Shown here piece after piece: positions 10,315 through 63,920 of a stretch of 64,000 bases of DNA (the first letter of the stretch is position 1; every line of letters starts with the position of its first letter). Below the pieces are notes generated by a model. It saw only the letters and a program-made list of their open reading frames with translations. It did no database searches and was not told the DNA's origin. This stretch comes from Erigeron canadensis (Eukaryota > Streptophyta > Magnoliopsida > Asterales > Asteraceae): the NCBI RefSeq assembly GCF_010389155.1, contig NC_057767.1:3331765-3395764 (forward strand). Reading direction: 5' to 3'. A program made the translations under genes and the position numbers.

Positions 10315-12866
10315 ATGGGGAGGACTAGGAAACCCGCCTGGAGAAATTCAAATGGAGAGGGGTACAAACGAAACAAAATACAAAAAATTACCACCCGAGC
10401 TTCAACATCTAAGGGAAGTCCTCAATCACTTAAGAAGACATCCCTCTTTGTGTCTGATGATGCTGAGAAAAGATTTAATAAGTTTACCAGCAAACGGAAA
10501 CTATTTATGGAAAGAGGTTTCACATGGTCCGAGTCTAGCGCACCTGAGTTTCCCGATACCATTACTCAAGCTATCCGATTTCATAAGTGGGAAAACTTTT
10601 GCCAGCATCCTTCTTCTGCGTGTATTGCTGTAGTTCAAGAATTTTATGCCAATTATGATGCTGATAGACCTGATTCAGTGTTTGTTCGAGGTAAATTAGT
10701 TGATGTAACTGCATCATCTATCAACTCTCTATTCGAACTCACTGATCATCAAGGTACTCTATATGAACTTTCCTCAAAATTACTGCTTTCCACAATGAGC
10801 GACATCCTGGAGAAATTGACTGAACCTGGAACAGTACACACCCGAGCATCAGATGGGACTATTACATTCCCGCGAAAATCTCTCAAGGCGGGCTTGAATA
10901 TCTGGTTTAACTTTGTCCAACACAACCTTCTTCCATCTGCTGATGATACAATAGTTGAAAAAGATAGAGCCATTTTGTTGTATTGTATCTTGGTAGGAAA
11001 ACGGATCAATGTTGGAAAAGTGATAGCAGAACAGATTGGGGTATGTGCTAGCCATAATGATGGCAGTTTGTGGTTCCCTGTTCTCATCACACGATTATGT
11101 AATCGACATAATGTTCCCCTATCCAATCTTGAACCTATCCATCAACCTTATTCTCCTCTTGCTGTGAATCTGAGTAAGCAAACACTGAAGAGTAACCCTA
11201 TTGAGATCGAATCAGATCAGGAAACGACCCAATCATATCATGCCCCTTCAACCCCTGCCAAGCCTTCATCTCTGCCTCACAGTGACTCAGAAGTCGTGCT
11301 GGTGATTAGTATTTTTATTGTTATAAATTATGATAAAAGTTAAATCGATATTATAATTACAATGATCATTGAACTTCTGAATAAAATGATTTAGAAGGTG
11401 TTAAGCATTTTGAGTAACTTTTAGGTGATCATTAACAGATTGGAACCATTCAAGTCATTTATATCTTAAAAACTTTTCGTATATAAAATTAATCCATTTG
11501 ACCCAATAGACACTGAGTATAACTCAAGTTGACCCAATAGACTCTGAATATAACTCAAGTTGACCCATTCAACCAAAAAATTTACTTCAATTGTATGTAG
11601 ACTAACATGTGATGGTAAATCGTTTTAGTTAATGGATGATGATGGCGATGAAGAACTCTTAGACCACAAACTGGAACAGCAGGAGTTGGTTGAAAACGTG
11701 TCTTCTATGTTAGATTGTGTATGTATCTTCCTTCATCTCTTTATATTTCAGAATTGGTTGTACTAAGTTTTTTTAAACAATTTTATGCTATACACTCCTT
11801 TATTTATATTAGAAAGAAATATTTTGGCCCAAAGGGACCAAAGTGAATGAATTTGGGCTCGTGAGTCTTTTGAGATAAATTTGGGTGATATAACATATCC
11901 AAATCGGCTAAATTGAAGGAAGTGCTTTATATTTTGCAGATCAAAATGGGTTGGGTCAGGTTGACCTTTGTAGTTTTCCTAACTCTTATATGACTAAAAT
12001 GTTGAATATGGTTAAAAAGAACCAGACTTTTAAATTGAATCTGTTTAAAATAACAATGCTGGAGAGCCAAGTGTTCAATCCTTTCAAGTTGTAACCCATA
12101 ACATCACAACTGTAATTTGTTTGATTCTTTTTTATGCTACAGCTCACTAATGTAAAAATCTATGAATGCTAACTTTTAAAATTGAATATTGATAGACTGA
12201 TAGTTACGGGATTCATAAGAAGATAGAAAAAGTAACGTGTGGATACGACCAATTTGACCAGTTACGTGACCCACTTATTTTGCCACCTTTGAATTCTGTA
12301 TCCATTTTGTACAGCTGGGACAGGCATCTCCTATAAAGGCTTCATCTCCTGGCATTTGTGTCCATGGCTACAAGGTGCAGAAGAGTAATGTACCGATTCT
12401 TGAAGACATTTTCAAGAAACATGGTGACATTGCTGCTAAATCCATATACACAATAACTTCTATGAGATCTTCTTTCCTTGAGGGTATTTGTGAAGTTGTC
12501 AGGCTAGTTAATACCAATCATGTTGTAGAAAATATGGAAGAAATAGAACATTATGTGTCACAGGCAGAGCAAGCCAAGATTGATGTGTCTTGGCTTCGGG
12601 CTCACTTGGAAGCCTTGCAGAAAACAAAGGATGCTATGGAAAATATAAGTTTGCTTGAAGAAATGAAAGCAAACACTGTTTTAGTTAAACAAGCCGCCCT
12701 AAAGGTTGAGAGGCAGAGATGTGCAGAGCTCTTGGCCGCACAAGAAAGATTTGTAGAGGCAGACAGGTGTGTGAGTGTTCTTCACTTTGTTGAAAAATAT
12801 CTGGGAGACAATCTGGTGAAATCTGAAGCTGAAAAAGCCTTATTGGTAACACAACCAATTCTATAG
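10315..12866 (+). CDS. Gene A: plant-transposon-protein-like domain fused to PEARLI-4 domain
   Basis: Spliced model: exons 10315-11301, 11629-11718 and 12315-12866, all phase 0, 542 aa. Residues about 40-270 resemble the 'putative plant transposon protein' domain common in composite genomes (FVRGKLVDV, an alpha-helical middle, NLLPSADDTIV). Its biochemical role is unknown to me. A Ser/Pro-rich linker ends SDSEVVL. The 30-residue middle exon is acidic and ends SSMLDC. The last exon is the PEARLI-4 domain with PILEDIFKKHGDIAAKS, a coiled-coil-like middle and a final QPIL stop. The family name 'phospholipase-like' is historical; I see no catalytic motif. Donors and acceptors are canonical and the frame is open throughout. 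The acceptor context of the last exon matches genes B, D, E and F. PEARLI-4 proteins are plant-specific and poorly understood, so function is not inferred. Confidence 0.8.
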
Positions 12867-14505
12867 TTAATTAACTTATGTTAGACATATAATTAATAGA
12901 AAGATCGACAGGGTCATGCCTAACCCTTGTTTTGTCATTCTAGAAACATCTTATATTTGGTCTAGTGGTGTGCGGCCTCTTATCTGAAAGACACCTTGAG
13001 TTTTGTTCATATATAGTAATATCTAAATTATTGGAGATCACCTTGTTTTTACATCATTTATAATGTACTTGGGAGTTGGGATTAGCTTGTTCCTACATCA
13101 TTCGTTTTGTATGCGTGCTAAAGATCACAGAGCATGATTCCATATTGTGTTTTACAGGTGGCAAGACGGGTGTGTTGGATTTAGTAAATGGGTCAAAATG
13201 GGTTGGGGTCAAAGCAGATTAGGTCAGGTTGGAACTGAATAGGTATTCACTAAGTACCAAAATCGTTAATAAATTAAGTAGGATTACTAAAACTTTACTT
13301 TTAAAATAAGCTTATTTAATTTTCTAATTAACGAGTGATGAGAGGTTTTAAGCATGTGCCACTATTAGACTTGTTTGACCCGTTCAAATCATTTCTAATA
13401 TAGCCCTTTTCTTACTAAGACGATGCAACTGAATGCAACCCATATGTCGTGTTTCCAATTTGTACTTCCTTAAAGTTTAATAATCTAAACTTGCATTTTG
13501 AAATGGTTGGAAGTTTCTGATTCTTATTCATTGAATCCCTGAGCTACCTGGCTTTCTTTGTAAATTATATGAAGTCACAACCTGCTCTACTCGGTCATTA
13601 CTGTAATGACATATTTCAGCATATTTATGTCTCAGGTTTAGTCACTTAGTGTGTTGTTATATAATTTGATGATTTTATGTGGAGATTCATTAGTTAAAAA
13701 CCACCCCTATGAATTCACATTTTAAGGTGATTCCATGTGCTTACATGAATGATCATTCCTAAATTAGCAAACCCAGTGTATCAACAAAATTTTAGCAATA
13801 AAGAATTTGGTAAAACTTAGCAAACCCAAACTTCTATGGTTTTGTGTTTGTTCTAAGGAGAATTTATGTATGATGTTTAAAGTATTTGCCTTGTGGGATG
13901 TGGCCGGATATCTTACGGCAAGCAGTCTCTCTATCCTCGGGTAGAGGTATGACTGTTTGGATTTCACCTCCCCATACCACATCAAAGATAGTTCAAAATG
14001 AATTACTAGACATGACAATGAACTTAGAGACATAAACATTTTACTTGACAAAAATGCTTTTGACTACATGTATATTAAAAAACCAGTTCACAGTTGCTGG
14101 TACTAAATTTTTTATTTTAATCCCGTATGCAGATAACGTCTATGAAAAGTATCAACTAAACATATTTTAAACAAAACAAAAGAATATCTGAACCTAAATC
14201 TAAATCAAAATCAAATACTCGGTTTCTTTGATCCAGATACACCAAAAAGATACCATAGGTTTGACCAGATAATGAAGTCAACATCTGATCTAGCTCAAAC
14301 ATCATCAATTAACATTCCTATCCAAATACAAAAACCATTCATTCGATGTTGTTACAACAACATAAAGCTAGCTTTGCAAACATCTACTTAGCTTTTACGA
14401 TTAATTTTAATGACTAGAAAGATGCTACATTCTTCCTTTAATTAGTTGAAGCCAGTGAAGGGAAAATTACAACCGCACATTACTTATTAGCCCGAGCAGC
14501 TCCTC
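12867..14505. other. 3' flank of gene A, convergent with the first MYB gene
   Basis: No gene seen. 13190-13760 recurs in diverged form at 17230-17770, and its last 250 bp recur at 18590-18860, marking copies of the downstream flank of a PEARLI-4 gene. Shorter resemblance (TCTACTCG-TTATTCTG block) occurs after genes B and E near 33290 and 57400. Confidence 0.6.
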
Positions 14506-18592: not shown

Positions 18593-18594
18593 AA

Positions 18595-28514: not shown

Positions 28515-29642
28515 GAAATGAAAGTGTTTTCCAGTTTCAGCATAAACTAACACTAATTCATTTTCGGTTTTCAAAACGCAATTATGCAGACACAACCCCT
28601 TTATAGACGTACTACCAGCTTGAATACTCGGTAAACCCTAAACCTAAGTGAAGGGGTCAAGGGGATCAACTCCGGTGACAACTTTTTATTCTACTTAATT
28701 ATATCGAAGAAGAAAAACTGAAAGCACTCAAAGGTTCATCTTTATATTTAATCTTTCTTATTTATACTTTCAAATTTTTGGGATAACCTATTAAAGATAA
28801 GCTACAAAGTCGAAGAATTTCAATAAAATAACAAACATATTATCCTTTAGCTATAATCCCAGATAAACTTTTTAAAAAACCCCACAAATCCCCTTTATTA
28901 TATAAAAAAACCTAAAATCCAAAAACTAAGCTAACAATTTCCAAGAATGTATAGAAAACAATAGTCATGAAACATTATATCAAAAAAAGAAAAAAGAAAA
29001 AGAAACCTTTAGAAAAGAACAGTAAAATTAAGATGTTCATACTTACTTGATGCATCCATTGATTTTGGGATATGATGAGGATGTTAATACACAAAAGAAT
29101 GATTTGATATATAGTTTGGAAGATTCAATACAAAGATATGAAAATAAGATTTTCCTTTATTTGATTTTGATTCGGTGTTTGTTGTTAGGTTATTTGTTCT
29201 TTTGTAAAATAGTTTTTTTTTCTTTTGTCATAAACTTTACGATGGAAATTTTCCCGAAGCAGAGGGGAGGTTGATACTTGGCAATTTTTTAAAAGCTCTT
29301 TAGCTAAAAGAAGCTAAAAGAACCTTATTTTATTAAGGAGAAAGATAATAAGTGAAAAAAATGACAAAATTAAAAAAGAGAAACAATAGAATCTATGTGT
29401 CAAAATGGTTTTAACTGTATCCTTAGAATTCACTTGAGGGTCCCCCTCCCGCACAATGTTGTGTAAAACACCAAAATTACCCAGAAATGATTGGAGGGTT
29501 ATTTTGATGTTTTAAATAAATTAAATCCTACAACATACTCTATTATTCAAACCCCAACCGGAAAACTACCACCACCACCACCGCGTCCAAAATCGAATCA
29601 GCCACAGCCACCGCCGCTGACATTCTAGAAACCACTACACAA
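28515..29642. other. Intergenic region upstream of gene B
   Basis: AT-rich with short frames only. 29560-29640 is C/A-rich and reads like a plant 5' UTR (CCACCACCACCACC) leading into the start of gene B. Confidence 0.4.
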
Positions 29643-32605
29643 ATGCATCATTCAAAAAAGGTCAAGAAAACCGCATCGTTTGGAAACGAAATGAAGCAAG
29701 AACCGATGAACCCGACGAACACTATGTCTGTTGCTGAAAAGCAGAAACTGGCCTCTGACTTGGTGGAGTCGGCAGCGGATTTACCGGAAAGCATTATTAA
29801 ATTCGCGTTTGATAATTGTTCAAATGGAAATGCAACAATGGAGGAGGGGATTGAGCTCGATCTCGGCACTCTCAGTAATGATACACTGTTCAAGCTGAGG
29901 AAGCTTTTAGATGATTTCTTGGCTGGCAAACAGAAAAACATTGTGCCGTTCCAAAAAAAACGGAAAACAAAAAACAAGACAGGGAACCCCACGACAAAAG
30001 AGGTATAACCCTTGACCATTTATGTATAAATATAATAATATGTCGTTATGTTAGTTTATGCCTCTAATCAAAGGAGTTTCCCTTTTCTTTTTTATTATTT
30101 TGGGAGAAGGGTCACATTTTGCAGCTAAATTTAGTTGAGTTACTCCGTATATTTATTTTAAAAAAAACTTGGTTGGATCAATGGTTGGAGCCCTGAGGTC
30201 AAGGGTTCGATTCTCATGCTCCTTTTCTACCGTTGGTAGAACCTTGAAGCAGCCACTCTACCTTTGGTAGGGTAAGGCTGTCTACATTTCAAACTTCCTC
30301 ATATACCGTCAAAGATGGTATTAGGACCCAAAACTCGTAAAAGACGGCATTGGGGGTTACTTTACTTTTTACTCCGTATTATTTTAACCCTTAAAATTTT
30401 ATTTGAATGAATGCGAAGTATGATATATGAAATGTTTAAATTAGTGAACAAAAGAGATCGAAAATTTTTTGGGGTTACCAAAAAATTAGTGAAAAAAGAG
30501 AATGAATATTTTGGGGTTATAATAACTTTAATTTGAATACATAATTTTATTTAGAGTATTATAGTTATACTAAAAGAAAAGAACATGTTGGGTTATCAAA
30601 AATTTTATTGAAAAAAAGAAAGGGAGTAAATGCTTTATAATGTACTAGTAATATAATATAGATGTAGATATGCTAGTGTTGTTAAAGGCTAGCGCCTCTT
30701 GCGCCTAGGCGCAAAAGGCGGGCGAGGTGCACCTCCAGCGCCTCAAACCCTAGGCCCAAGTCGACCATGAAAAAGGCGGTCAACAACGGTCAACTGTGGT
30801 GGTCAACGACGGTCAAAATGGTTTAATGGGTCAAGATTCATTCAAGATCCGACCGAATCGTGGCTAGATCTAATGAGTGACCATAGTCGTTTAAGAAGAT
30901 AGTGAAAATATAAAATGGGGGGAAGAAAAAATTATGTTTTTTTTATATATGTTTATAATAATCTAATAATTTGAAGTTTTTGGTGGAAAAATTATTTTTT
31001 GAATGATATTTGGTTTTATAACTGATGTCTGATTTTTTTTTACCATTATTTTTCACTATATATAAATATTTACTTAGTGCGTTTTTTTTTTCCCGGGCGT
31101 GCGCTTTTTTTGCGCCTCTCGCCTTCGCCCTATTTGGGGTCTTTGCGCTTTGAGGTCGCCTTCGCTTTTGATAGCTATGAGATATGCTAAATTTGTTTAA
31201 ATTTGAGATGTATATTAAATTGATAGTGAAATGTTCATTTGAAAACTAAAATTTCTGTGAAAACTAGAAAACTGACCACCAAAACACAAAACACATTGTG
31301 TAATCTAGAAATGCATTGTGGTAAGTTTCAAATCACAATGTGTTTTTGATTGCGTGTGAAAATCAGAAAAGTGTTCAAACATACTGTGATATGAACTTAA
31401 TACAATGTGTTTTGTTAAAACACATTAAAAATAAATTGTGTTAAATTTAGATCACAATGTGTTTTGGCCAGTTTTCTAGTTTTCACGAAAATTTTAGTTT
31501 TCAAATGATCACAACCCTAAATTTATAATCTGTTTAAATTTGTGTTACTTGGCTTGTTGAAATAGATTATGTGGTACAGTCAACGGTTTACTATGGACAG
31601 GGAAGTTTTTGTCAAACTGGGCAAAACTAGTTGAATTTGGCCAGAAAAACATATCCAAACGGGTAGAAGCCTGGAATAACGAATGTTAGTAACAGTTTGC
31701 CAGTCAAATCAGCTTGAATTGACTTTTGTTGGGTTTTTTATTTTTTGATATTTGAAAAATTAAATATGATCGTAAAAATTATGCTGCTAAAATAATTTCT
31801 AACTATTATGGAACAAACCAATATCTCTTTAGTTTTAACCAGCAACATTACCATTATAATTAGTTTCTTTCTCTTTTGCAACAATTTATTAGTTGACGTA
31901 ATAAATAATGGATTCTTAAATATGAAGTTCCATCTGATGAATAGGCTTCAACATTACTGAAAATGAAATGAACGTAAGAAAATGCATATGTCGTTACCCA
32001 ACCCGGTCATATTGCCACCTCTAATCTGTATTCATTTCGTACAGCAGGGACAGCAACTCCCTACAAAGGCCTCAACTTCTCAATGTAGCATAATTTGTGT
32101 CCAAGGCTACGAAGTGAAAGAGAGTATTGCACCGATTCTTGAAGCCATATTTAAGAAACACGGTGATATTGCATCTGAATGTATATACACTATAGCTTCT
32201 GTGAAAGCGTCTTTGCTTGAGGTTGTGTGTGAAGTTGTCGGGCGGATTCAAGCCGATGATGTTATTGAGAAAATGGAAGAAATAGAGTCCCTTGTGTCAC
32301 TGGCAGAGGCAGCTAAAATCAATGTGTCGTGGCTTTGGGTCCACTTGGAAGCCATTAACAGAAGGAAGGATGTCATGAAAAAGTGCAGTTTGCTTATGGA
32401 AACAAAAGTAATCACTGTTTTGGTTCAAATGGCTGCTCAAATGGATCTGAGAGAGAGATGTGCAGAGCTCGTGACAGCGCATGAACGATTTAAAGAGGCT
32501 GAAAGGTGCGTGAGAGTACTTCATCTTGTTGAAAAGAAGCTAAATAACAACATTTTGGACTCTAAGGCTGAAAAAGACTTGTGGGGAAGACAACCACTGT
32601 TATAG
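29643..32605 (+). CDS. Gene B: NET (BET extraterminal) domain fused to PEARLI-4 domain
   Basis: Two-exon model 29643-30002 and 32045-32605, phase 0, 306 aa. The 120-residue first exon has a basic start, then a NET domain: MSVAEKQKLASDLVE, LPESII and DLGTLSNDTLFKLRKLLDD, followed by AGKQKN. This pattern matches the NET region of plant GTE8-11-type BET proteins, which recruits partners through acidic residues in the nucleus. No bromodomain is present. The exon ends in a basic stretch and PTTKE at a GT donor, the same ending as the linker exons of D and E. The second exon is a complete PEARLI-4 domain (VAPILEAIFKKHGDIA region changed to SIAPILEAIFKKHGDIAS). The 2-kb intron holds a SINE and two MITEs. 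Without transcripts the joining of the two exons is inferred from frame, splice sites and paralogs. Confidence 0.75.
30161..30369 (+). repeat. SINE (family 1) in gene B intron
   Basis: A-box-like TTGGATCAATGGTTGGA, B-box GGGTTCGATTCTCATG and the family 1 tail are all present. Flanked by TACTCCGTAT (30141-30150 and 30370-30379) within a longer imperfect duplication, consistent with retroposition. Confidence 0.8.
30676..31179. mobile_element. MITE with GC-rich ends in gene B intron
   Basis: GC-rich, partly complementary ends (GCGCCTAGGCGC cluster at left; GCGCCTCTCGCC at right) enclose an AT-rich core. The 10-bp direct repeat AGATATGCTA flanks it (30666-30675 and 31180-31189), as a hAT- or Mutator-type target duplication would. 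Confidence 0.65.
31235..31508. mobile_element. MITE with about 40-bp terminal inverted repeats in gene B intron
   Basis: 31235-31280 and 31465-31508 are inverted complements with very few mismatches, starting TCATTTGAAAACTAAAAT. The interior repeats CACAATGTGTTTT in both orientations. No target duplication was recognised. Confidence 0.75.
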
Positions 32606-41300: not shown

Positions 41301-41341
41301 AGGCTGAAACCGACTCGTGGGTAAAACGACGAATTTTATAA
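35342..41341 (+). CDS. Gene C: plant-mobile-like domain fused to PEARLI-4 domain
   Basis: Spliced model: 35342-35414, 38636-39549, 39664-39907, 39982-40184 and 40817-41341, 652 aa. Exon 1 (24 codons plus one base) ends KRKPTTKQ and supplies the G of the Asp codon completed by exon 2. Exon 2 has an acidic/basic start, then a globular domain with MGFASMLDF, VTNKTIHDVLGVPMG, LFKLNFLVLFVTIM and NMDWCQYILE, resembling the aminotransferase-like plant mobile domain/DUF1985 group. Exon 3 continues VFYAHSIN. Exon 4 is Pro/Ser/Gln-rich (TQVFEDGNN...QTDSDTLP). Exon 5 is PEARLI-4 (VAPILEAIFKKHGDIAA). All junction phases agree. Exon 4 and the PEARLI-4 acceptor differ from D and E and resemble genes A and F. 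The first intron (3.2 kb) holds a LINE fragment, a SINE and a MITE. Role unknown. Confidence 0.78.
35415..36789. other. First part of gene C intron 1
   Basis: 35570-35605 is a decayed counterpart of the 30-base cassette exon seen in D and E (in-frame stop, no donor). 35880-36130 aligns with intron 1 of D and E. No gene seen. Confidence 0.5.
36790..37040 (-). pseudogene. LINE (non-LTR) reverse transcriptase fragment in gene C intron 1
   Basis: The minus strand reads FKYHWGNNKLGITHMCFADDLL and then FSQCSGLYPNVGKCSMFFGNV, a pattern specific to plant LINE reverse transcriptases (FADD catalytic block and the GL-PN-GKS segment). It stops at a (TA)n tract near 36796. About 80 codons remain of an enzyme of well over 1000. 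Confidence 0.78.
37180..37500. repeat. Degenerate GCTGTTTTG repeat stretch
   Basis: Many loosely spaced GCTGTTTT/AAGGCTG words, including an exact doubling of GTTTTGTTGCAGATTTAAGG at about 37332 and 37377. No coding sense. Confidence 0.5.
37554..37790 (+). repeat. SINE (family 1), best-preserved copy
   Basis: About 235 bp. A-box-like GGTTGGATCAGTGGTTGG, B-box GGGTTCGATCC, then the body with CCTTTTCTACCTATG, GCAGCCTCTCTACC, ACACCGTCGAAGACGG, and the tail ending CATTGGGAGTTAC plus T-rich DNA. This copy serves as reference for at least seven others in the window. Confidence 0.82.
38125..38485. mobile_element. hAT-like MITE, copy 2, in gene C intron 1
   Basis: Ends CTAAGTAGTCAG and, inverted, CTATGTAGTTAA. 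The exact 8-bp duplication CATGCATG lies at 38117-38124 and 38486-38493. Inverted relative to 9055-9539. The matching intron positions of D (near 46035) read straight through, giving an empty site. Confidence 0.85.
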
Positions 41342-42000
41342 GGCTATTTAAATCCTGCTAGTTGTGTAATCAAATCTATGATTGGCAGGACACACCTACA
41401 TCCCCTATTCTTTCTAAATCTATGCGTTAGATCTTTTTGTTGGAAGACGGACTAAGTTTTATGTGTTAGATCTTTTTTAGATTATTCTAATTTATGTGCT
41501 AAAGATCTCAAGATCAAGAGTCTATTCTTCACAGGTGGCATTGTGGCAAGATGGTTGAATGGGTTGGGGTTAAATCCAATCAGGTTAGGTTGTCTAGCAA
41601 CTTTTTTTTTTGTCCCTCGAAATAAGCCCTTTAATAATTAATGTTGAGTCCGGAGATTCATTAGTTCAGGTAAACCCCAAATGATTTCTGGATTAGGAGG
41701 TGTCTGCTTGTGCTGGATGAATGATTATGACCAGTCGAGGATTAAGTTTAATCATAAGGAATTCCGGTAAATTGGGGAAGACTATGTCTGTTACTAATTT
41801 ATTGTAATTGAGGATTGAAAGATGATAAATGTGATTAATTTAATAGGTTGTAATTTGTAAATAAGGTAAAAATTTGGTGTGACAATGGCATATCAAAGAT
41901 GAAGATCAAGTAAGAATCAGTAAAATCCATGTGTCATCTATCGAAACTTTAAACATGTTTTTAGGCTTGTCATTCAAATATATATATATATATATATATA
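41342..42000. other. 3' flank of gene C
   Basis: AT-rich with GGTTGGGTT-type words also seen after other family members. It ends in a (TA)n tract. No gene seen. Confidence 0.45.
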
Positions 42001-42591
42001 GGGGTGGGTTATTTTGAGAACCATAAAAAAAGAAGAACGTGAGAACCAATCTGGGCCACAAATTTCATCTCCTTTTTTCTCTTTCATCACTTTCATCCAA
42101 ATTTTTCAAAACGTTTTATCTCACAAACCGTGCATCGTTAGACGAAAAAAAAACCATGGGTAGTCTTAAAATTTCGTCCTCTTTCATTAGAGATGCGACT
42201 TGATATACTTTTGACAAACTTTTAAATTTCGAAATTTTTTTTTTTTTCGAAATTTTTTTTTTACCTACACATGTGTAGGATGTGTATGATGTATACCCTA
42301 CACATGTCCTGCACATGTGTAGGATTATCGCTAAAAAAAAAATTAAAAAAAAAATCGAAATTTAAAAGTTTGTCAAAAGTATATCAAGTCGCATCTCTAA
42401 TGAAAGAGCACGAAATTTTAAGACTACCCATGCTTTTTTTTTCGTTTAACGATGTACGGTTTGTGAGATAAAACCATTTGAATGAATTGGGTGAAAATGA
42501 GGAGAGAGAAAATTAAATATCATCAAGATCAAAATCAATGGCAAGGATTGGTTCTCGTGTTTTTTTTTGATGGTTCTTAAAATAACTTTCC
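42001..42591. mobile_element. Long foldback element between (TA)n tracts
   Basis: Two arms of roughly 250 bp are inverted complements: left GTTATTTTGAGAACCAT, ATGGGTAGTCTTAAAATTTCG and TTGATATACTTTTGACAAAC; right the reverse of each. The centre (42250-42330) has CCTACACATGTGTAGG and related palindromes. (TA)n tracts flank both sides, which suggests insertion into a TA microsatellite. Confidence 0.8.
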
Positions 42592-42629
<38 letters not shown>

Positions 42630-45325: not shown

Positions 45326-45331
45326 ATATAG

Positions 45332-45759: not shown

Positions 45760-46415
45760 TACTTTAGCAAAACGCTAGACGTACTAGAAAAGTTTCAAAT
45801 ATCAAGTAGTGACATGTTTGGATTCATTCGGATTGATCAACAAATGTTATCAAGCTATTATAATGTACTTGTAAAAAATATGATAAATATGTGCAATTGT
45901 AACTATTGTGAATATAGGCTGGTATAGTTTAGTGTTTGTGTCATTCGTTATGATGATACATATTGCTATATATCTTTTTGAGTGTTATATATGTCGACTA
46001 TACCATATTGTTTCATCTAGTAAGAATAAATAAAATTCCTTCACATGATATATAAAGTTTTTTTAAGTAGTACTGTTGTTTTACATATTATTAATTTGTA
46101 TCATAAAGTTTTTTAGCAGTAATTGTAACTGTAGTGTAATCGTTAAGTAGTGTTCTGTAGTTGTAGTAAGTAATATGGTTTAACATGTTTTAGATGAAAG
46201 GATGCAACTGAAATGGAATATCTATAAAAGGCTGAAAAGGGAAGAATATAATGATGAACCGAATGATGATTATGTAGCGAGTGACCCAACTTATTTGAAA
46301 AAGAGGCGGAAGTGTGTTTTAGAGACAGAAGACAAACATATAAAGCAGCCAAGCTCATTACCTTCGCGTCGTGGGCGCAAAAGAATGCCCTACCGGATAA
46401 AACTAAGTTCACCCC

Positions 46416-48057
46416 TGATGTGCAAAATCGAGCTTTAAATTTATAAACTAAAACTACCAAAGAACTAACTACTACGCACTCACGGGCAGTGGACCCGATC
46501 ATTTGTAATATAGTCAAGAGGTAAGTCTAAGTTCGTTCTCAGGGATTGTGAAATGATTAGTTGCTTGTTGAATGGTTTGGAAAACAGGTGTTGCTTCAAA
46601 ATTCCCTTTTGACAATTAAATAAATTGATTTGCAATATGATTGCATAAAATTAAAATACAAGTTCAGACGATATAATTAAAAGTCATCCACCTTGACTTC
46701 CCTTGACTTCAAATGTGATCGCTTTTAATGAGTAACAAATTCTCTAGAGTTTGAAAGATAGTCGTAACAAGATTATACTATTCACGTGGTACCACCAACC
46801 GTGAACAGATTATCAAATCACCTAACTACTAGTTGAATTACCCAAGCCGGTACCACCAAGGCTAAGACAATTCTCCTAACGATCAGTTTTTATTGACTTA
46901 TCAAATTATCAATTGAACCTATGTGACAATAACGTGGTACCACCAACCGATATCAATCACGTTGACAAATTTAATATTTTCTTAAAATGATATTCACTAT
47001 CATACCATGAACTAGTGATAATTACTTATAGACAAGTAACCGTTTTAAAATCACATACACATTCAACTGGTACCACCAACGAATAATCATATGCAACCAA
47101 TATCAAAATTAATTAACGAAAAGAATTAAAACCATCAAGATCACGGAACAACGATAATTAAACAAACCCTTTTGAATTAAAAATATAGCAATCACATTAT
47201 CCGTCTCGTTTCATCAAGGTGGATGATTAAACAGTTAGCCACTCATGATCAATTCAAAATAATCAAAGAAATAGAAAAGAAACATGATGTACCAATTGTT
47301 TGAAGAAAATAAATTGCAAGACAATAATGTAGATACGATCTAGATGGGTGCTCGTAATATCTTCGATGAATCCGCCTAAGTGAAACACTTGATTGGAGAA
47401 GGAAGAATCCTTATAGAGCGGCTCCTAGAAAGAGTATTTGATGCCTAATTTCGAGTTAGGGTTTCCTATTTATACCCCTTCAAAATCTGATGCAAAAACA
47501 GGTCAGGGTTTGTTTTCCCATGCACCCACTGCGCCGCAGTGGGTCTTGGCTTCTCCTCACTGCGGCGCAGTGAGGTGTTGGGCGACTACGACTTTGACTG
47601 ACTGCGGCGCGGTGGTTCGTGTGATCACCACTGCGGCGCAGTATGATTCCACGGCTTCGTTCCTCCTTCAAGCGACTGCGGCGCAGTCCTTTTGTTGCCA
47701 TCCCCACTGCGGCGCAGTGGGGTTTTTCCTTTTAATTCCGTGGAGCAGGACTGCGGCGCAGTGGGCTTGTGCATCCCCACTGCGGCGCAGTCAAGAGCTT
47801 GTATAGAACCAACTCGTTTCGGTCTTGATTACTCGCTAAGCTCTGCCGTCTCATCCATTCAAATCGACTCTCATCAACATAACGTACTTCCTGACCAATA
47901 ATCACTCGAAAATGTACCAAATGGACGCATAACCTGTTTAGAGCCTGTAAACACTAACAAACACCATAAACGCGTCAAATGCATACAAAAACGACTAGAA
48001 ACATATATTAAAATGGTCAATAATGATGTGGGTAATGGGTATAAATTAGTCACATCA
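46416..48057. mobile_element. Solo LTR (1642 bp) inside gene D coding exon
   Basis: Begins TGATGTG and ends CACATCA, so it has TG...CA ends within an inverted heptamer. ACCCC duplicated at 46411-46415 and 48058-48062 is the 5-bp target site. There is no protein frame, primer site or second LTR. Internal features: four GGTACCACCAA words (46788, 46849, 46936, 47069), a CTATTTATACCCC TATA-like stretch near 47467, and an array of eight GC-rich palindromes (47528-47791). Orientation is unclear. The solo state implies LTR-LTR recombination after insertion of a complete element. Confidence 0.82.
47528..47791. repeat. Array of eight ACTGCGGCGCAGT palindromes
   Basis: The 13-base near-palindrome starts at 47528, 47559, 47601, 47630, 47675, 47706, 47750 and 47779. 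Copy 1 has GCGCCGC at its centre and copy 3 has a G for A near its end. Several copies extend to 17-21 bases of dyad symmetry by compensating flanks (CCC..GGG, T..A). Spacings alternate 31, 42, 29, 45, 31, 44, 29. Lies in the solo LTR. Confidence 0.85.
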
Positions 48058-50422
48058 ACCCCCGATCTCTTTTTATCTTTTGATGCGTAGGCTAAGTGAT
48101 GATCAAAAGTCCGCGATACGGGAAATGGGATTCGCTTCAATGCTTGACTTTCAAATAAATAAGATTCCAACAGTTATGGGGTATTGGGCTGTGAAGAACT
48201 TTGATCATAAGGCATGCACTTTACTGGTCAAGGATGTATCATTAAAAGTCACAAATAAAACCATACATGATGTACTAGGTGTTCCAATGGGTAGTACGAG
48301 AATTAATGCATCCAGGTTAAGTTGTAATTGCAATCATGCAACACAAGAATTTAGGAAGCAATTTCCGCCCACAAAGAAATCGATACGTATCACGGATGTT
48401 ATTCATGAGATGGTAGAGCAGGAGAAAGGTGGCACGCTATTTAAATTGAACTTTCTAGTTTTGTTTGTTACAGTCATGGCGGGAAGTCATGGTGGGGTGG
48501 TGAACCAAAAGTTTTTGGGGAGTATTAGAAATTTGCAGGATGTCAGAAATATGGATTGGTGCCAATACATTCTTGAGTGGTTGGTGAGAACAAGAAAGGA
48601 ATGGAATCCGAAAACCTACTTCAACGGCCCAGTGGCCTTTTTGGTCGTAAGTTTATGGTTTATTATTCATGCTTAATTGATTGTGTATATGTTTGTGTAT
48701 CAGTTTGGAAATACTATTCTATGATAAACTTAACAAATTATTTGTTTAAACTTTTTAAGGTTTTCTATGCACATTCAATCAATCCAAAAAATATAGAGGA
48801 GACATTGGTTCCAGTAATCAATATGTGGACATCAGATATGTTGATGAAATTAGAAAAAGAGGAGTTCATTACTGGACGACGCATTGACAATGATGTGTTA
48901 GGATGTGATGATGGTGAACTGAATCGTGATGACACACAAAACATAGCCGAGGAATTAGGTACACCACATCTAGAGCTTTGTCAAGAAGGGTTGTATAACG
49001 AATTCGATAACTGGGTTCTTTCAATTGGACAGCCGAAGGAACCCACGACTAAAGAGGTACAATTATAAACATATGTATGTATATGATATCATAATTGTGC
49101 ATGCCATTAAGTAAAGGAGTTGCTTTTTTGCTGCTAAATTTAGTTGAGTTATTATTTTAACCCTTACACTTTTATTTGCTCAAATGGTTTATGTGGTACA
49201 CTGACTCAAATGGTTTATGTTCAAAATGGAAGTTTTGGTCAAACTGGGCAAAACTAGTTGTAAATTGTAATTGGCTTATTTTATTTTTATTTTTTTTATA
49301 GTTTTATAGGCTAGTTTTGGCTGGAACAACATATCTAAACAGGTTAGAAACCTGGAATTAACGAATGTTGGCAATAGTTTGCGGCCCAAAAAGGGTCAAA
49401 TCAGTTTGTAATGACTTTTGTCGTTGTTTTGTTAGTAATTTAAAATATTAATATGATCATAAAAGTTATACTACTATAAGAAATTCTGATATATATTGGC
49501 TTCAGCTTGTATTGACTTTTGTCATTTTTCTGTTAATATTTGAAATATGAAATATGCTGGTAAACTACTAAACTAATTTATACGAGTAACATTTATGGAA
49601 CAAAACAATATAGGACTATACTAGAGGAGTAGAGGTAAGGAGTTCGTAACTTTCTTAGTTAACCAGCAACATTACCATTGTAATTAGTTTAGCTCTTTTA
49701 ATACAACAATTTATTTGTTGAAGTACAAACAATGGATTCTGAAGTTTCATTTGACACATTGGCTTCAGCATAACTGAAATGAGCGTAGGAAAATGTATTT
49801 GTCGTTATCCAACCCGGTCATATTGCCACCTCTAATCTGTATTCATTTCGTACAGCTGGGACAGCAACTCCCTACGAAGGCTTCAACTTCTGAATGTAGC
49901 ATAATTTGTGTCCAAGGCTACAAAGTGAAACATAGTGTTGCACCAATTCTTGAAGCCATATTTAAGAAACATGGTGATATTGCAGCTGAATGTATATTCA
50001 CTATAGCTTCTGTGAGAGCAACTTTGCTAGAGGTTGTGTGTGAGGTTGTCATGCAAATTGAAGTCAATGATGGTATTGAGAAAATGGAAGAAATTGAGTC
50101 CCATTTGACACAGGCAGAGGCAGCTAAAATTGATGTGTCGTGGCTTCGGGTCCACTTGGAAGCCATTTACAGAAACAAAAGGAAGGAGGTCAAGAAAAAG
50201 TGGAGTTCGCTTATGGAAACAAAAGTAAACACTGTATTAGTTCAAAAGGCTGCCAAAATGGATCTGATAGAGAGACGTGCTGAGCTCGTGACAGTGCAAC
50301 AACGATTTGAAGAGGCTGAAAGGTGCGTGAGAGTACTTCATCTTGTTGAAAAGAAGCTAGATAAAGATATTTTGGACTCTAAGGCTGAAAAAGACTCGTG
50401 GGGAAGACAACTAATGTTTTAG

Positions 50423-51532: not shown

Positions 51533-51583
51533 CACCCCAATATCTCATTTCGAGCTCTACATCCTCATTTTCATATTTTCTTT

Positions 51584-52874: not shown

Positions 52875-55800
52875 ATGAGCATGGAAACATACATAATCGT
52901 AGCAGAAAATGAAAGACAACAAACGTTTTATCAGGAACAAAGACACGCTAAAAGAATGCCAACAACCGAACAAGGTATGAAATTATCATCTACTTTTTTA
53001 TTTTATTATATAAATATTTTATATATACTATTATACATACTTTTTTATTATATATATATATATATACATTATATAGGTACAAATATGTATGTAACAACCA
53101 AAGAAGGTATGAAATTATCAAGGACTGTAATACTTTTTATCCCACATTTTAACAGTAAACGGAAAACCCAAAAAAACTACTGATGTTTCCGACATTAATT
53201 AAGATTATATAAAACTGATAACTGATGTGAAGGCCGGCATTATGGGCCCGTATAGTAGTACTTTAGCAAAATGCTTAAATCGGCGGAGAAACCTTGACCT
53301 CATTGAGATCATTTGGACCGAACTGACCCTAGACGTAGTATAAAAGTTTCAAATATTAATTGGTAGAATGTTTGGATATGTACATTGTGATTGATCAACA
53401 AATGTTATCGAGTTTTATTAGATAAAATATATGATTTATATGTGCAAGTGTAACTATTGTGACTAGTGGCCGGTATAGATTAGTATTTGTGTCGTTCATA
53501 CATATTGATGATACATATAGCTCTATATGTTTTTGAGTGTTATATATGTTGACTATAACATATTGTTTCATGAGAACTGCTTGAGTGACAAACAAACTTT
53601 TACTGACAAGGCTTACTAACCCATGTGGACCAATAAAACAATGAGAGAGATTGAATAAATAAAAAAGATCAATAATTTCATTGGTGTTAAGTTTTTTTTA
53701 AGTAGATTGTTGTTTTATATTTTGCTATTTTGTATCATAAAGTTGTTTAGTAATAAATGTAACTGTTGTGTAATTGTTAAGTAGTGTTTTGTAGTTGTAG
53801 TAAGTAATATGGTTTAACATGTTTTAGATGAAACGATGCAACTGAAATGGAATATCTATAAAAGGCTGAAAAGGGAAGAATTTGATGATGAACCAAATGA
53901 TGATTATGTAGCGAGTGACCAAACTTATTTGAAAAATATGAAGGGTGTTGTGGAGACGGAAGACAAACCTGTAAAGCAGCCAAGCTCGTTCCCTTGGCGT
54001 CGTGGGCGCAAAAGAATGCCCTACCGGATAAAACCAAGGTCACCCCCGAACTCTTTTTATCGTTTGATGTGTAGGCTAAGTGATGATCAAAAGGCTGCGA
54101 TAAGGGAAATGGGATTCGCGTCAATGCTTGACTTTCAAATAGATAAGATTCCAACAGTTATGGGATATTGGGCTGTGAAGAACTTTGATCATAAGGCATG
54201 CACGTTAAAGATTAGGGATGCGTCATTGAAAGTCACAAATAAAACAATACATGATGTTCTAGGTGTTCCAATGGGTGGTACGAGAATCAATACATTCATT
54301 ACAAATTGTAAGTGGAATCTTGCAACACAAGAATTTAGGAAGCAATTTCCAGCCACAAAGAAATCGATACGTGTTGCGGATGTAATTCGTGAGATGGTAG
54401 AGCAGGAGAAAGGTGGCACACTATTTAAATTGAACTTTCTAGTTTTGTTTGTTACAGTTATGGTGGGAAGTCATGGTGGGGTGGTGAACCAAAATTTTTT
54501 GGGGTGTATGAAAAATTTGCAGGATGTGAGAAATATGGATTGGTGCCAATACATTCTTGAGTGCTTGGTGAGAACAAGAAGGGAATGGAATCCGATTAGC
54601 TACTTCAACGGCCCAATGGCCTTTTTGGTCGTAAGTTTATGTTTTGTTCATGCTTAATTGATTGTGTATATGTTTGTCTATCAGTTTGGAAATACTATAC
54701 TACGATAAACTTAACAATTTTTATTTTTTTTTACTTTTTAAGGTTTTCTATGCACATTCAATCAATCCAAAAAATACAGGGAAGGAGACATTGGTTCCAG
54801 TAATCAACTTGTGGACATCAGATATGTTGATGGAATTAGAAGCGGCGGAGTTCAATACTGGAGGCATTGAGAATGATGTGGTAGGAAGTGGTGATGGTGA
54901 ACTGAATCGCGATGACACACAAAACATGGCCGAGGAATTAGGTACACCACATCTAGAGCTTTGTGAAGAAAAGTTGTATAACAAATACGATGACTTGGTT
55001 CTTTCAATTGGAGGGCCGAAGCAACCCACAACTAAAGAGGTACAATTGTAAACATATGTATTTGCCATTATGTTTGTGCATGCGAGACACTTTTTGCGGC
55101 TAAATTTAGTTGACTTATTATTTTAACCCTTACACTTTTATTTGCTGAAATGGTTTATGTGGAAAATGAAAGTTTTGGTCAAACTGGGAAAGTTAGTTGT
55201 AATTGGGCTTTTTGATACTTTTTGAAAGTTAGTTGTAATTGCGGCTAAATGTTTTGGCTGGAAGAACATATCTAAATAAGTTAGAAGCCTAAAAGTAATG
55301 AATGTTGGCTATAGTTTGCGGCCCAAATGGGTCAAATCAGTTTGTATTGACAGTTGTCGTTTTGTTAATATTTAGAATATTAGTATGATCGTCAATGTTA
55401 TACTACTAAAATAAATTCTGATATATATTGCCTTCAGCTTGTATTGACTTTTGTCATTTTTCTGTTAATATTTGAAATGTGAAATATAATCGTATACTAA
55501 ACTAATTTATAACTTTTATAGAACAAAACAATATAGGACCATACTAGAGGTAAGGAGTTGATATGTTTTTAGGGTTTTTTTTTTTTTTTTTTGAACGACG
55601 GGTGGGAAGGTCGTTCGATCGATCGAGCTGAACAGTGACATCCAAACGGGCAGTATGCTCAGGGTTCGAGGCGATATGTTTTTAGTTAACCAGCAACATT
55701 ACCATTGTAATTAATTTAGCTCTTTTAATACAACAAATTACTAGTTAAAGTAATAAATAAGGGATTAGTTTCCATGAATGTAAGAAACTTTGAACGAATG

Positions 55801-56741
55801 TATATAGTAGGAAATAACTAAAGTTGTGTGTATTGTATGTATACAACTTTGAAATATTGTTTATTGTATGTAAAAATTTCGTTTCAACCAATTAAAATCT
55901 GACAAGTGGCACCTGTATATGGTTGCCACGTATGCTTTTTTACATACAATAAACATTTTTTCAAGTTGCTTACATACAATACACATAACTTTAGTTTTTT
56001 CTTACTATAGACATTCGGTCAAAGATAGTTACATTCCAAGAAACTAATCCCAATAAATAATGGATTCTGAAGTTCCATTTGACACATTGGCTTTAATATA
56101 ACTCACCTGAACGTAGGAAAATGCATTTGTCGTTACCCAACCCGGCCATATTGCCAACTCTGATCTGTATTCATTTTGGACAGCTGAGACAGCAACTTCC
56201 TGCAAAGGCTTCAACTTCTCAATGTAGCGTAATTTGTGTCCAAGGCTACGAAGTGAAAGAGAGTGTTGCACCGATTCTTGAAGCCATATTTAAGAAACAC
56301 GGTGATATTGCAGCTGAATGTATATACACTATAGCTTCTGTGAAAGCGTCTTTTCTAGAGGCTGTTTGTGAAGTTGTCAGGCGGATTCAAGCCAATGATG
56401 TTACTGAGAAAATGGAAGAAATAGAGGCCCTTGTATCACAGGCACAAGCAGCTAAAATTGATGTGTCATGGCTTTGGGTCCACTTGGAAGCCATTTACAA
56501 AAGGAAGGAAGTAATGAAAAAGTGGAGTTTGCTTATGGAAACAAAAGTAAATACTGGTTTGGTTCAAATAGCTGCACAAATGGATCTGAGAGAGAGATGT
56601 GCAGAGCTTGTGACAGCACAAGAACGATTTGAAGAGGCTGAAAGGTGCATCAGAGTACTTCATCTTGTTGAAAAGAAGCTAAATAACGAGATTTTGGACT
56701 CTAAAAGACTCGTGGGGAAGACAACCAGTTTTATAGGCTAA
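52875..56741 (+). CDS. Gene E: plant-mobile-like domain fused to PEARLI-4 domain
   Basis: Spliced model: 52875-52974, 53828-54630, 54743-55039 and 56184-56741, 585 aa, or 595 with the 30-base cassette 53077-53106. Exon 1 codes a polar start (SMETYIIVAENERQQ) and splices in phase 1. Exon 2 has a basic segment (RRGRKRMPYRI) and the mobile-like domain (MGFASMLDF, VTNKTIHDVLGVPMGG, LFKLNFLVLFVTVM, NMDWCQYILE). Exon 3 gives VFYAHSIN and an acidic linker ending PTTKE. Exon 4 is PEARLI-4. Ten bases present in the other copies are missing near 56704, which shifts the last codons: the usual KAEKD-WGRQPML end is replaced by KRLVGKTTSFIG. This is the only uninterrupted member of the D/E pair. Family function is unknown to me; similar fusions are annotated in composites as phospholipase-like/mobile-domain proteins. 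Confidence 0.8.
53077..53106 (+). other. Candidate 30-base cassette exon, gene E
   Basis: Acceptor TATAG at 53072-53076 and donor GTATGAAAT at 53107. Adds TNMYVTTKE plus a split codon without changing phase. Its last bases and donor (ACAACCAAAGAAG then GTATGAAATTATCA) copy the end of exon 1 (ACAACCGAACAAG then GTATGAAATTATCA), so it probably arose by local duplication. Confidence 0.5.
55573..55672 (-). repeat. Short retroposon (about 100 bp) in gene E last intron
   Basis: A T-run of about 18 at the left end (poly-A on the minus strand), then GAACGACGGGTGGG...; flanked by the exact 13-bp duplication GATATGTTTTTAG (55560-55572 and 55673-55685). Absent from the same intron in D. Likely a 5'-truncated SINE or LINE end. 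Confidence 0.75.
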
Positions 56742-60245: not shown

Positions 60246-60284
60246 TAGGTATAATATATACTTTATGTTTTTGTGTGTGTATAT

Positions 60285-60502
60285 ATCTATAACTATACTA
60301 TTATATAATGCGTCAACCTCCTTTCCCTTTTCTCAAAGGATGGAGATTCCCTCAAGTTTACCTAACACAAGACCTCCTTTTACATAAATTACTTTTACAT
60401 TTACCGCCATTGCTGCCCCCACTACCCGTCGCCGCCACTGCCTCCACCACCACCCCGCGTTACTACCATTATCGTCGCCGCATTGCGCGGGCATATGACT
60501 CG
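60285..60502 (+). mobile_element. Degraded Helitron related to 34674-34938
   Basis: Starts TCTATAACTATACTATTATA and ends with CGTCGCCGCATTGCGCGGGC, then CTCG and T where CTAG and T is expected. The CCACC-rich and GCCGCC-rich body matches the copy at 34674. Confidence 0.6.
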
Positions 60503-60731
60503 TATATATTTATATATGTATTAATAAGGTTTGTAGCATACATAATATAGTTCACTTCATTAGTTCATTATTACTTAGTTCTTGCTATTTGTAGTTTCAC
60601 ACATAAATTCGAGTCCGGACCGATTGGTTGGCGAGGATGAAAGTTAGTATTTTGTATAGGCAGTTCATCTCATTGTTTATTATATTTGTTATGTTAAATT
60701 GTATTATTTTTAGCATTTTTCAGCTGTTGTG

Positions 60732-63700
60732 ATGGAAGAAAATACATGTCAAGCCACTCGTGGACGGGCTTCTCTAGACAAGGTCAGAAAAGCTGTGAAT
60801 TCATCAGTTGAGTTCCATCCTGTCACTTTTATGCCGCTTGGTGACCCTGGTACAAAGTATACTAATTGGGTAGGATTGAAGACACGAACATCTATCTCGA
60901 TCCTCTTGGCTGACTGGAAGAAAGTTCAAAAAGTGCAAAAGGATCGTTTGTGGTCGTCTATTCAGGTGAAAATAATATATATCCATATATATATTGTGTG
61001 TAATATCATTACATTTATATATATTGTACATCATTAACATATTTATTGATTAAATGAAACAGAAACATTGGAATATACCAAATGACGAAAACACGTTACA
61101 TATCAAGAAGTCCACCTTGAAGATTGCTAATACGTCATGGAGGAACTTTAAGAAAAACCTTATTCGTATATATGTGCGGACGGGGAAAACCCCTTTTTCA
61201 AAATACAAGTTCATCAAAGAAGAGACATGGAGAGAGTTCTGTCGCCTTAAGTCGACTCGTGAATTTATGGTTTGTTCAACTTTCTACTCTTTACCGGTCA
61301 TTCAAAATAAAAGTATATTACTTTATTTGTTTAACATTTTGCAAATTACTTATTCATTACATTTATTACTTTTCGTAAGTTAATCTAAAACTTATTATGC
61401 AAGTCTTTGCTTATATAGGTTAAAAGCGCAAAAGGGAAGGAGCTTGTGAAGTTGAACAAGAACCCACACCATCTAGGATCACGAGGGTACCTTGGGAAGA
61501 AAGATCAGTGGGCAAAAGAGAAGGAGCTAGGTAAATGTCCGGAGTTATTTAGCCTATCAACTGAGCGAGCACGTGAATTTCTACTAGCAAGGCGGGTTAA
61601 AGTTGGGCCTGATGAATATGAGCTACCTGAGAACCTTTTGCCATTGGCAAATCAGATTGTAAATGTTTTTTTTATTATTCTTATTATTTTGTCTTATGAG
61701 TAATTTTTTATAAAACATGTACCCTCATTCTGGATATCTAACATGACAGATTGAAAAAGAACATTTAGCACCGGGTGAAGATTCTTTGGTGGCGGTGATG
61801 GGAAAGGACCACTCGGGTGGCACTAGGGGAGTAAGTCACAATGTCGGAGTGAGAACTACCCTTCCAGGCCTTGCAGGTAAGAAAAGAAAACACAAGGACA
61901 TGGAGTCGCTTAAAAGAACTATTGAGGATCAGGAAAAAGTGATAAAAGAGTTGAAAGTATCTAATGTTAAATATGTGGATCAACAAAAGCATATGCAGGA
62001 GCAAATTCATGCGATCCAATCACAACAACCGGGTCAAAGTAGAGGCCTTTTTACTCGGGCTAAAAACCATGTAAAAAAGGGTAAGTATCATTACACTGTT
62101 TTTATATACCCAAAGCAAAACTGTGTAAAAGCCATGTTTTAGTAGTAGTGACGACACAGTAGAATCTTGTAGCAAGTTATTTTGTAATCAAAACTATTAA
62201 CATATACAAAGAAGTTTACTGATTGTGTATCATATCGGTTAGCATGTGTTTCTGGCAAAACAGACACACAAGTTTACGAAGATGCAAACAACAACAATGA
62301 AGCTCCAGAGAATTATGTATTAGGAAGTAATGATGGTAAACTGAATCACATTGACACACAAAACATAGCCGAGGGATTAGGTACCCCACATGTAGAGCAT
62401 TGTGTAGAAGAATTGTATAACAGCTACGATGACTCGGTTCTTTCATTTGGATGGCCGAAGGAACCCACGACTATACAGGTATAACCGTAGGCATATGTGT
62501 TCCAATATGTTAGTGAATGTTATTACTTAAAGGAGTTCTTATGTGGGGGGGGGGGGGGGGGGGGGGGGGGGGGATGTCTAAGCAGTCACATTTTGCCGCT
62601 AGTTTAGTTGAGTTATAAATTTAACCCCTAAACTTTCATGTGAATGTTACAATCACTGACTTTAGCTGAATGTGAAGGATGATAACGGGCTGGATGAAAA
62701 TGCATCTACAATGTTGGATTGTGTATATATATATCTCTACCTCCCTTTATATTTTAAATTTATTTTACTTAGCTTTCTTTAGAACTAGTTTATGTGGTAC
62801 ACTTAAATGGTTTATGTTGAAAATGGAATTTTGGCAAATAGCTTTATAGGCTAGTTTCTGCCGGAACAACATATCCGAACGGCTTAGAAGCCTGGAATGA
62901 CGAATGTTGGCAACAGTTTGCAGGCCAAAATGGGTCAAATCAGTTTTTATAATGGGCTAATGGCTTCTTTTTTTTTTTTTAAAAAAAATAGTTAAAATAT
63001 TAATATGATCGTAGAAGGTATACTATTAAAATAATTTCTGTTATATTGGCTTCAGTTTGTATTGACTTTTGTCATTTTTCTGTTAATATTTAAAATACTA
63101 GATATGATTGTAAACTACCAAACAAATTTCTATTTTTTATGGAACAAAACAAACACAAGAGGTAAGCAGTTAATACCATTGTATTTAGTTTAGTTCTTTT
63201 AATGCAACAATTTACTGTTTAAGTAATAACCAATGGATTCTGAAGTTCCATTTGATATAATTGCTTCAACATAATTGAAATGAACGTAGGAAAATGCGTT
63301 TATCATTACACAACCTGGTCATATTGCCAACTCTAATCTGTATTCATCTTGTACAGCTGGGTATGCAACTTCCTAGAAAGGCTTCAACTTCTCAAAGTGG
63401 CACAATTCTTGTCCAAGGCTACAAAGTGAAACAGAGTGTTGCACCAATTCTTGAAGCCATATTTAAGAAACACGGTGATATTGCAGCTGAATGTATTTTC
63501 AATATAGCTTCTGTGAGAGCATCTTTGCTTGAGGTTGTGTGCGAGGTTGTCATGCAAATTGAAGCCAATGATGTTATTGAGAAAATGGAAGAAATTGAGT
63601 CCCATTTGACACAGGCAGAGGCAGCTAAAATTGATGTGTCGTGGCTTCGGGTCCACTTGGAAGCCATTTACAATAACAAAAGGAAGGAGGTCAAGAAAAA

Positions 63701-63920
63701 GTGGAGTTTGCTTACGGAAACAAAAGTAAACACCGTTTTGGTTCAAAAAGCTGCCCAAATGGATCTGAGAGAAAGAAGTGCAGAGCTTGTGACTGCGCAG
63801 GAACGATTTAAAGTGGCGGAAAGGTGCGTGAGAGTACTTCATCTTGTTGAAGAGAAACTTGTTAACATTTTGGACTGTAAGGCTGAAAAAGACTCGTGGG
63901 GTAGACAACCAATGTTATAG
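60732..63920 (+). CDS. Gene F: Ptta/En/Spm transposase-like N-terminus fused to PEARLI-4 domain
   Basis: Seven-exon model: 60732-60965, 61063-61269, 61419-61658, 61750-62080, 62264-62478, 62666-62722 and 63357-63920; phases agree at every junction, 615 aa. Exons 1-4 resemble the plant Ptta/En/Spm transposase family of CACTA elements (TRGRASLDKVR, WREFCRLKST, KLNKNPHHLGSRGYLGKKDQW, ERAREFLLARR), then a Lys-rich coiled-coil-like stretch with Gln-rich end. Exon 5 is a chimera: TQVYEDANNNNEAPEN as in gene C exon 4, then the DTQNIAE-LGTPH acidic linker of D/E. Exon 6 (19 codons, ends STMLDC) matches gene A exon 2. Exon 7 is PEARLI-4, closest to gene D. Open throughout, so it could be an active chimera, but no expression evidence is available. 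The CACTA nuclease domain is not included, so no transposition activity is implied. Confidence 0.78.
62545..62573 (+). repeat. Run of 29 G in gene F intron 5
   Basis: Uninterrupted G homopolymer between exons 5 and 6. It may form G-quadruplexes or reflect a sequencing/assembly length error. Confidence 0.95.

Follow-up and report, generated by a model that had tools for sequence, protein, structure and literature searches.

The PEARLI-4 genes of the window

The window analysed here, a stretch of 64,000 nucleotides from Erigeron canadensis (contig NC_057767.1; window positions convert to genome coordinates C7:3331765-3395764), contains six genes, A to F, that each end in a PEARLI-4 exon (PF05278). 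All six exons lie on one strand, the plus strand, and are entered at a phase-0 boundary according to reading frames and acceptor sites, as had been claimed in an earlier note made from the sequence alone. All six also score above the Pfam cut-off (57.2–70.9 versus 29.9 bits). Their DNA identity in BLAST alignments is 69–84%. A whole-genome search gave 20 PEARLI-4 matches, and 17 of them fall within C7:3236957-3417917, every one on the plus strand. The domain E-values, the identity of the exons and this clustering on one strand together exclude chance, and the window covers only a section of a PEARLI-4 array that continues on this strand to both sides.

The modules of this array were mapped by tblastn on 161.8 kb of flanking and dispersed genomic DNA (Table 1). 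Its left part consists of six PDS5-Tudor-PEARLI-4 genes, four of which carry two consecutive PEARLI-4 copies (in the stretch from C7:3230001 on; L009 to L017). PDS5 domains inside the array are confined to this left part, and no match to PDS5 was obtained anywhere in the window. A to F would be derived, not full, members of the PDS5-Tudor-PEARLI-4 lineage, with the PEARLI-4 end present and the PDS5 front absent.

Database proteins of Erigeron canadensis, all of them predicted, match A (P0069), B (P0013), C (P0002 and P0017), E (P0001) and F (P0009), and no protein reproducing D was present among the 95 PEARLI-4 family proteins found. The Tudor-tail exon of A, the linker exons of C to F, the insertion in D, an upstream exon in the model of E and the array beyond the window were absent from the earlier note. 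An additional PDS5 exon was seen at C7:3204189, 28 kb to the left of the mapped array, which may therefore extend further in this direction.

Table 1. Positions of the exons, relics and insertions of genes A to F (window coordinates) and of the related loci elsewhere in the genome (genome coordinates).
Feature	Position	Strand	Basis or remark
A exon 1, Transposase_32 module	10315..11301	+	PF20167 E 6e-43; identical in model P0069
A exon 2 (30 codons), terminal Tudor exon, starting and ending in phase 0	11629..11718	+	profile searches
A PEARLI-4 exon	12315..12866	+	PF05278 E 4.1e-16
B segment homologous to NET part of bromodomain-NET gene C7:4630786-4631090	29628..29941	+	77.7% over 314 nt
B first coding exon, NET domain	29643..30002	+	PF17035 E 8.5e-10, 39 vs cut-off 24.5 bits
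B PEARLI-4 exon	32045..32605	+	PF05278 E 2.5e-15
C exon with mobile-like module	38644..39549	+	model P0002; 71-92% to D/E in 100-base windows
C linker exons	39664-39907, 39982-40184	+	alignments with D/E, F, A and P0036
C faint relic of terminal Tudor exon in last intron, followed by GTATAT	40338..40370	+	tail profile 12.2 bits, E 0.03
C PEARLI-4 exon	40817..41341	+	PF05278 E 1.6e-19
D mobile-like exon, first piece, severed by insertion	46193..46415	+	tblastn with P0001; self-BLAST with E
D insertion, 1,642 bp, ends TGATGTG...CACATCA	46416..48057	+	genome-wide repeat
D mobile-like exon, second piece	48058..48646	+	83% identity with E over 199 residues
D linker exon	48760..49056	+	self-BLAST, alignment
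D PEARLI-4 exon	49856..50422	+	PF05278 E 1.1e-18
E mobile-like exon	53836..54630	+	model P0001 has extra upstream exon 52875-52973
E linker exon	54743..55039	+	model P0001, alignment
E PEARLI-4 exon	56184..56741	+	PF05278 E 4.1e-17
F front, exons of CACTA-type (Transposase_24-like) open reading frame	60732..62080	+	model P0009
F transposon 3' terminus TTTTAGTAGTAGTG	62137..62150	+	near-identical at 3 other genomic places (L045-L047), different flanks
F linker exon, start like C, end like D/E	62243..62478	+	self-BLAST, alignments
F faint relic of terminal Tudor exon in last intron, followed by GTATAT	62690..62722	+	tail profile 8.5 bits, E 0.43
F PEARLI-4 exon	63357..63920	+	PF05278 E 1e-17
Six PDS5-Tudor-PEARLI-4 genes, left part of array	starts C7:3232618, 3242033, 3260569, 3268935, 3299309, 3308414	+	tblastn
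Degenerate mobile-like module with PEARLI-4 fragment, between PDS5-Tudor genes and A	C7:3317861, C7:3325134		tblastn
Partial Transposase_32 module with PEARLI-4 fragment, right of F	C7:3399288, C7:3404409		tblastn
P0036, Transposase_32-PEARLI-4 gene, right end of array	C7:3414906-3417959		tblastn
PDS5-PEARLI-4 locus outside array	C3
Decayed mobile-like/Tudor-tail/PEARLI-4 locus outside array	C8
PEARLI-4 locus outside array, without mapped front	C7:26928

A Tudor exon in front of PEARLI-4

The six-frame translation of the window was searched with a Tudor profile built from eight PDS5-Tudor proteins and with a tail profile built from 23 proteins from outside the window. Exon 2 of A was the top match with both (Tudor 28.4 bits, E 2.9e-7; tail 47.1 bits, E 3.6e-13). 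With the tail profile, the relic in C ranked second in the window and that in F third, and their scores were reached in none of 200 sense-strand shuffles of each intron. That C and F hold relics of this exon is supported, but more weakly than the exon of A. A is best read as descending from a gene with a Tudor domain, and C and F likely descend from such genes too; the presence of the exon in A implies that PDS5 and the remainder of the Tudor domain were lost there.

All six PDS5 genes of the array have a GT directly after their final Tudor exon, which closes in phase 0 (in one of them a codon past the profile match). The phase-0 intron is common to these genes and its constancy is therefore best read as descent, the intron before PEARLI-4 being the old Tudor/PEARLI-4 intron. 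The Tudor tail is also found in the decayed locus on C8 (37.5 bits), and the combination of PDS5, Tudor and PEARLI-4 is present in all four outgroup proteins, three of which come from Escallonia. A genome search with the Tudor family PF21743 found only two places, neither within the array, whose genes have the Tudor domain distributed over several exons; the search proceeds exon by exon.

We consider it likely that A to F arose from PDS5-Tudor-PEARLI-4 genes whose fronts were replaced while the terminal Tudor exon, the phase-0 intron and the PEARLI-4 exon were kept. The ancestral gene of the array would have been of the PDS5-Tudor-PEARLI-4 form that the left-hand six still have. Fronts may have been replaced when tandem copies underwent ectopic recombination or gene conversion, the joins falling in linker exons, and transposon insertion would be a further route. 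Several observations weigh against this descent. The relics in C and F are weak alone, and the Tudor profile places that of C only 14th (3.9 bits) and does not list that of F. No trace of the Tudor exon was found in B, D and E, whose best scores were reached by 155, 47 and 92 of 200 shuffles, and the tail profile had no match at the PDS5-PEARLI-4 locus on C3.

Fronts, joins and the histories of the two halves

The earlier note had described the PEARLI-4 exon as joined to four unrelated fronts, always through a phase-0 intron, and had read this as local exon capture. Its transposon-protein-like front of A and its BET-type NET domain of B were recovered by Pfam; the joins do not amount to simple captures at that intron, since homology reaches upstream into the linker exons, C, D and E represent one duplicated gene, D is cut and F carries a transposon end. 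Exons and introns are common to C, D and E up to position ~39,790 of C, and by their alignment the three are tandem duplicates of one gene. Homology of the C linker to D and E ends at this point and resumes only at the PEARLI-4 exon; in between, C resembles F and A in the DNA and P0036 in the protein. The 3' end of exon 1 of A is similar to the end of the C linker in a DNA alignment, and the final ~18 nt of the first coding exon of B match the end of the linker exons of D, E and F, a likeness that extends into the intron.

The mobile-like module assigned to C, D and E is shared by the three genes, but no Pfam family reached its cut-off. The best was the plant mobile domain (PMD, PF10536), with E 0.077 for E and 0.036 for full-length C and with 12.6 and 13.7 bits, below the curated 34.9. 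VANC proteins, which are described in the cited source as anti-silencing proteins of VANDAL transposons (PMC5735166; structure 9lnj), differ from these modules in sequence: a PDB search with the C/D/E-type profile gave no sequence match to VANC21 and Pfam gave no DUF1985 match in C, D or E. For the E module, Foldseek alone found no match at E<0.001, and VANC21 came up only in the VIA second look. The insertion that severs the module in D is bordered by a 5-bp target duplication, ACCCC (46411-46415 and 48058-48062). It is covered in full length by 31 of the 46 other genomic matches listed (40 of 2,285 candidates scored) and looks like a solo long terminal repeat (LTR).

The NET segment of B is homologous to part of a gene on the same chromosome, which lies at C7:4.63 Mb at a distance of 1.27 Mb and showed 69% identity in the protein search. 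The reading frame of that gene contains a Bromodomain (E 4.2e-20) and a BET domain (E 4.7e-14), whereas no bromodomain was found in the Pfam scan of the B model. A repeat at 28700-29341, 92% identical to C9:27869833-27870468, stops ~290 bp before the NET segment.

For F, described before as Ptta/En/Spm-like, the match to Transposase_24 is weak (E 0.0072, 16.9 bits) and lies under the cut-off of 28.7 bits, but the front ends on its 3' side in a CACTA-type transposon terminus. Homology of F to C starts at the base right after this terminus (C 39887 corresponds to F 62151 in self-BLAST), and at this junction the front of F, a transposon end, abuts a truncated copy of a C/D/E-type gene. A second terminus was not detected in the window, where TTTTAGTAGTAGTG has one exact match and, with up to three mismatches, 15 matches versus 12.25 expected by chance. 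An intron of F contains 29 consecutive G (62545-62573).

The two halves of C differ in history. Between C and E, synonymous divergence (dS) amounts to 0.243 for the front but 0.655 for PEARLI-4 (95% interval of the difference 0.184–0.713), and intron identity is 89% (C-D) and 84% (C-E) in the first intron and 55% in the last. In the module tree (16 rows) C, D and E form one clade (99/98); in the PEARLI-4 tree (69 rows) C joins P0036 (100/96), E joins B (100/94) and D joins F (100/96). A clade of C, D and E was rejected on the PEARLI-4 tree (p 0.00076), as were a single non-PDS5 clade (0.0001) and a single mobile-like clade (p 8.7e-41). The 95 proteins included 91 with a PEARLI-4 core, of which 78 were labelled by hand and 77 entered a first tree (P0088 left out); for the second tree of 69 rows eight near-copies were removed, P0064 was lost by length and D was added. 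The module tree does not include P0016, which was unmatched by the pattern, and the branch of P0030 in it is very long.

Some of these results speak against front replacement by recombination or temper it. The intervals of the front/back difference in dS contain zero for C-D and D-E, and neither a D+E clade (p 0.104) nor one Transposase_32 clade (p 0.057) was rejected. The groups tested were taken from the front labels, yet after a first tree had been seen. Moreover, the discordance would be equally expected from gene conversion of a single exon, conversion and crossing-over being indistinguishable here.

It is rather unlikely that A to F form an ordinary tandem family without repeated swaps. 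In such a family C, D and E would be normal copies, A would be an old paralog whose module has diverged but keeps the same fold, B would have arisen by one chance fusion, and transposons would have damaged D and F. The exons and introns common to C, D and E up to the C linker would fit such a family, as would the severed D, the transposon terminus of F and the linker end common to A and C. In a profile comparison of the six front modules, A versus C/D/E was the best of 15 pairings and colinear; however, no pair was convincing and the probability of this best one is just 2.3%. The differing histories of the C halves also argue against the family, as does the exon in A, which implies that PDS5 and the remaining Tudor exons were lost; in relatives, moreover, this end follows homeodomain, TAF4, HMG-box and DUF1985 fronts.

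The partner tabulation across Asteraceae proteins that the earlier note had suggested indeed gave many different fronts on the PEARLI-4 end. At least 60 residues lie ahead of PEARLI-4 in 87 of the 95 proteins, falling into 15 similarity groups, some of which are fragments. Fronts above the Pfam cut-off comprise PDS5, Tudor, DUF1985, homeodomain, RST with TAF4, HMG box with TAF4, Transposase_32 and BET, the BET/NET front occurring in one of the 95 proteins listed. The tree set holds 13 hand-made front labels on one 3' end (two share TAF4), and these change 20 times on the 69-row tree, the minimum possible being 12. Among these predicted proteins unrelated domains were thus fused repeatedly to one lineage, with 20 label changes and a single mobile-like origin rejected. 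Judged by locus tags, genes with different fronts probably lie next to one another in Tagetes (QVD17_34892, 34894, 34898; 02559, 02560), and two with partly different fronts, both with TAF4, in Deinandra (SSX86_015452, 015454). Against repeated replacement it counts that the architectures rest on predicted proteins, of which P0022, P0067 and P0068 seem to be fragments or wrongly predicted, and that the mobile-like modules of P0030, P0008 and P0010 have diverged far enough that they may have been acquired separately. A PDB sequence search with the PEARLI-4 exon of A gave weak matches only (best E 0.13), and the predicted full-length structure of A is of low confidence (pLDDT 44.8).

Selection was estimated by module as the ratio of nonsynonymous to synonymous divergence (dN/dS). 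Point estimates are below 1 in all 15 PEARLI-4 pairs (0.38–0.81; the intervals of B-D and B-E include 1) and in all three pairs of C/D/E fronts with linker (0.49–0.61), and there is therefore no sign of selection for diversity. The module codon sets held one intronic codon at the exon end, with negligible effect. A dedicated exon-capture system, in which the PEARLI-4 exon with its phase-0 acceptor was selected as a landing site generating a protein repertoire, is very improbable. The 13 labels on one 3' end, their 20 changes and the mostly chromatin or transposon nature of the heads could be taken for such a system, but the joins are located within linker exons or where a transposon ends and not at the acceptor, the intron is common to PDS5 genes, D is interrupted, F starts in a transposon and the dN/dS estimates stay below 1 in these pairs. 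No acceptor signal or dedicated capture machinery was seen. Of the duplicating 3' module with many fronts that the earlier note had proposed, the module itself is borne out in the array and in Asteraceae, with discordant histories of fronts and backs: the evidence supports fronts that were replaced repeatedly, but not a dedicated generator. To account for the joins, ectopic recombination or gene conversion within the tandem array together with transposon insertion is enough.

Possible role, related systems and neighbouring features

The proteins of A to F might be nuclear adaptors in which the PEARLI-4 end is constant and exchangeable heads would determine which chromatin or DNA is targeted. 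This is suggested by the partners, namely PDS5, Tudor, NET, homeodomain, HMG-box, TAF4/RST and transposon-protein-like modules. It weighs against this role that it is read from partner names. More tentatively, the locus may be one at which, in the daisy family, a cohesin-type PDS5-Tudor-PEARLI-4 gene was converted into a constant PEARLI-4 end with repeatedly attached DNA-binding and chromatin-reading heads, several of them from transposons, and the chromatin of transposons may be where these fast-changing factors act. Because their fronts are chromatin or transposon domains, calling these proteins "phospholipase-like" is likely misleading.

Fusion genes are usually viewed as pairs in isolation. 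In this array, likely parents and their fusions stand together with interrupted copies and with the old exon that links parents to fusions, so that one could work out in which order the events took place and when. The array would in this respect be a record of the birth of fusion genes.

A similar situation is described for the major integration clade of nucleotide-binding leucine-rich repeat (NLR) immune receptors in grasses, in which a single gene lineage gains diverse domains from other genes and for which DNA transposition or ectopic recombination has been proposed (PMC5819176). Going by that description, the array differs in that the constant part is the 3' end derived from PDS5-Tudor genes, the front is exchanged and the partners are chromatin or transposon domains instead of immune receptors. 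Plant PDS5C with its Tudor domain is presented in a review as a reader of H3K4me1 (PMC13361950); the left-hand genes of the array likewise combine PDS5 and Tudor, but have a PEARLI-4 end attached, and the window genes are without PDS5 and without most or all of Tudor. In Arabidopsis and rice, the cited excerpts report MATH-PEARLI-4 proteins (PMC10218331, PMC3664471), in which PEARLI-4 is also joined to another partner domain, whereas no MATH domain was present in the Pfam lists of the 95 proteins. Three adjacent PEARLI-4 genes arose in papaya by tandem duplication (PMC11997427) and are comparable in their tandem arrangement; an exchange of partner domains is not described in the cited part of that report. 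A literature search, mostly at the level of listings, found nothing on the PEARLI-4 fusions described here.

Two tandem MYB genes on the minus strand (14506-15300 and 19772-20506; Myb_DNA-binding E 1.2e-14 and 2.4e-14) lie between A and B and interrupt the PEARLI-4 array. At the left end of the window, direct repeats with 96% identity (1-355 and 3219-3573) enclose minus-strand frames (1246-3136) that are Copia-like by eye, which is consistent with the remnant of an LTR retrotransposon. The stretches 41978-42616 and 55761-56051, the latter within the last intron of E, are ~79% identical to their own reverse complements and probably resemble miniature inverted-repeat transposable elements.

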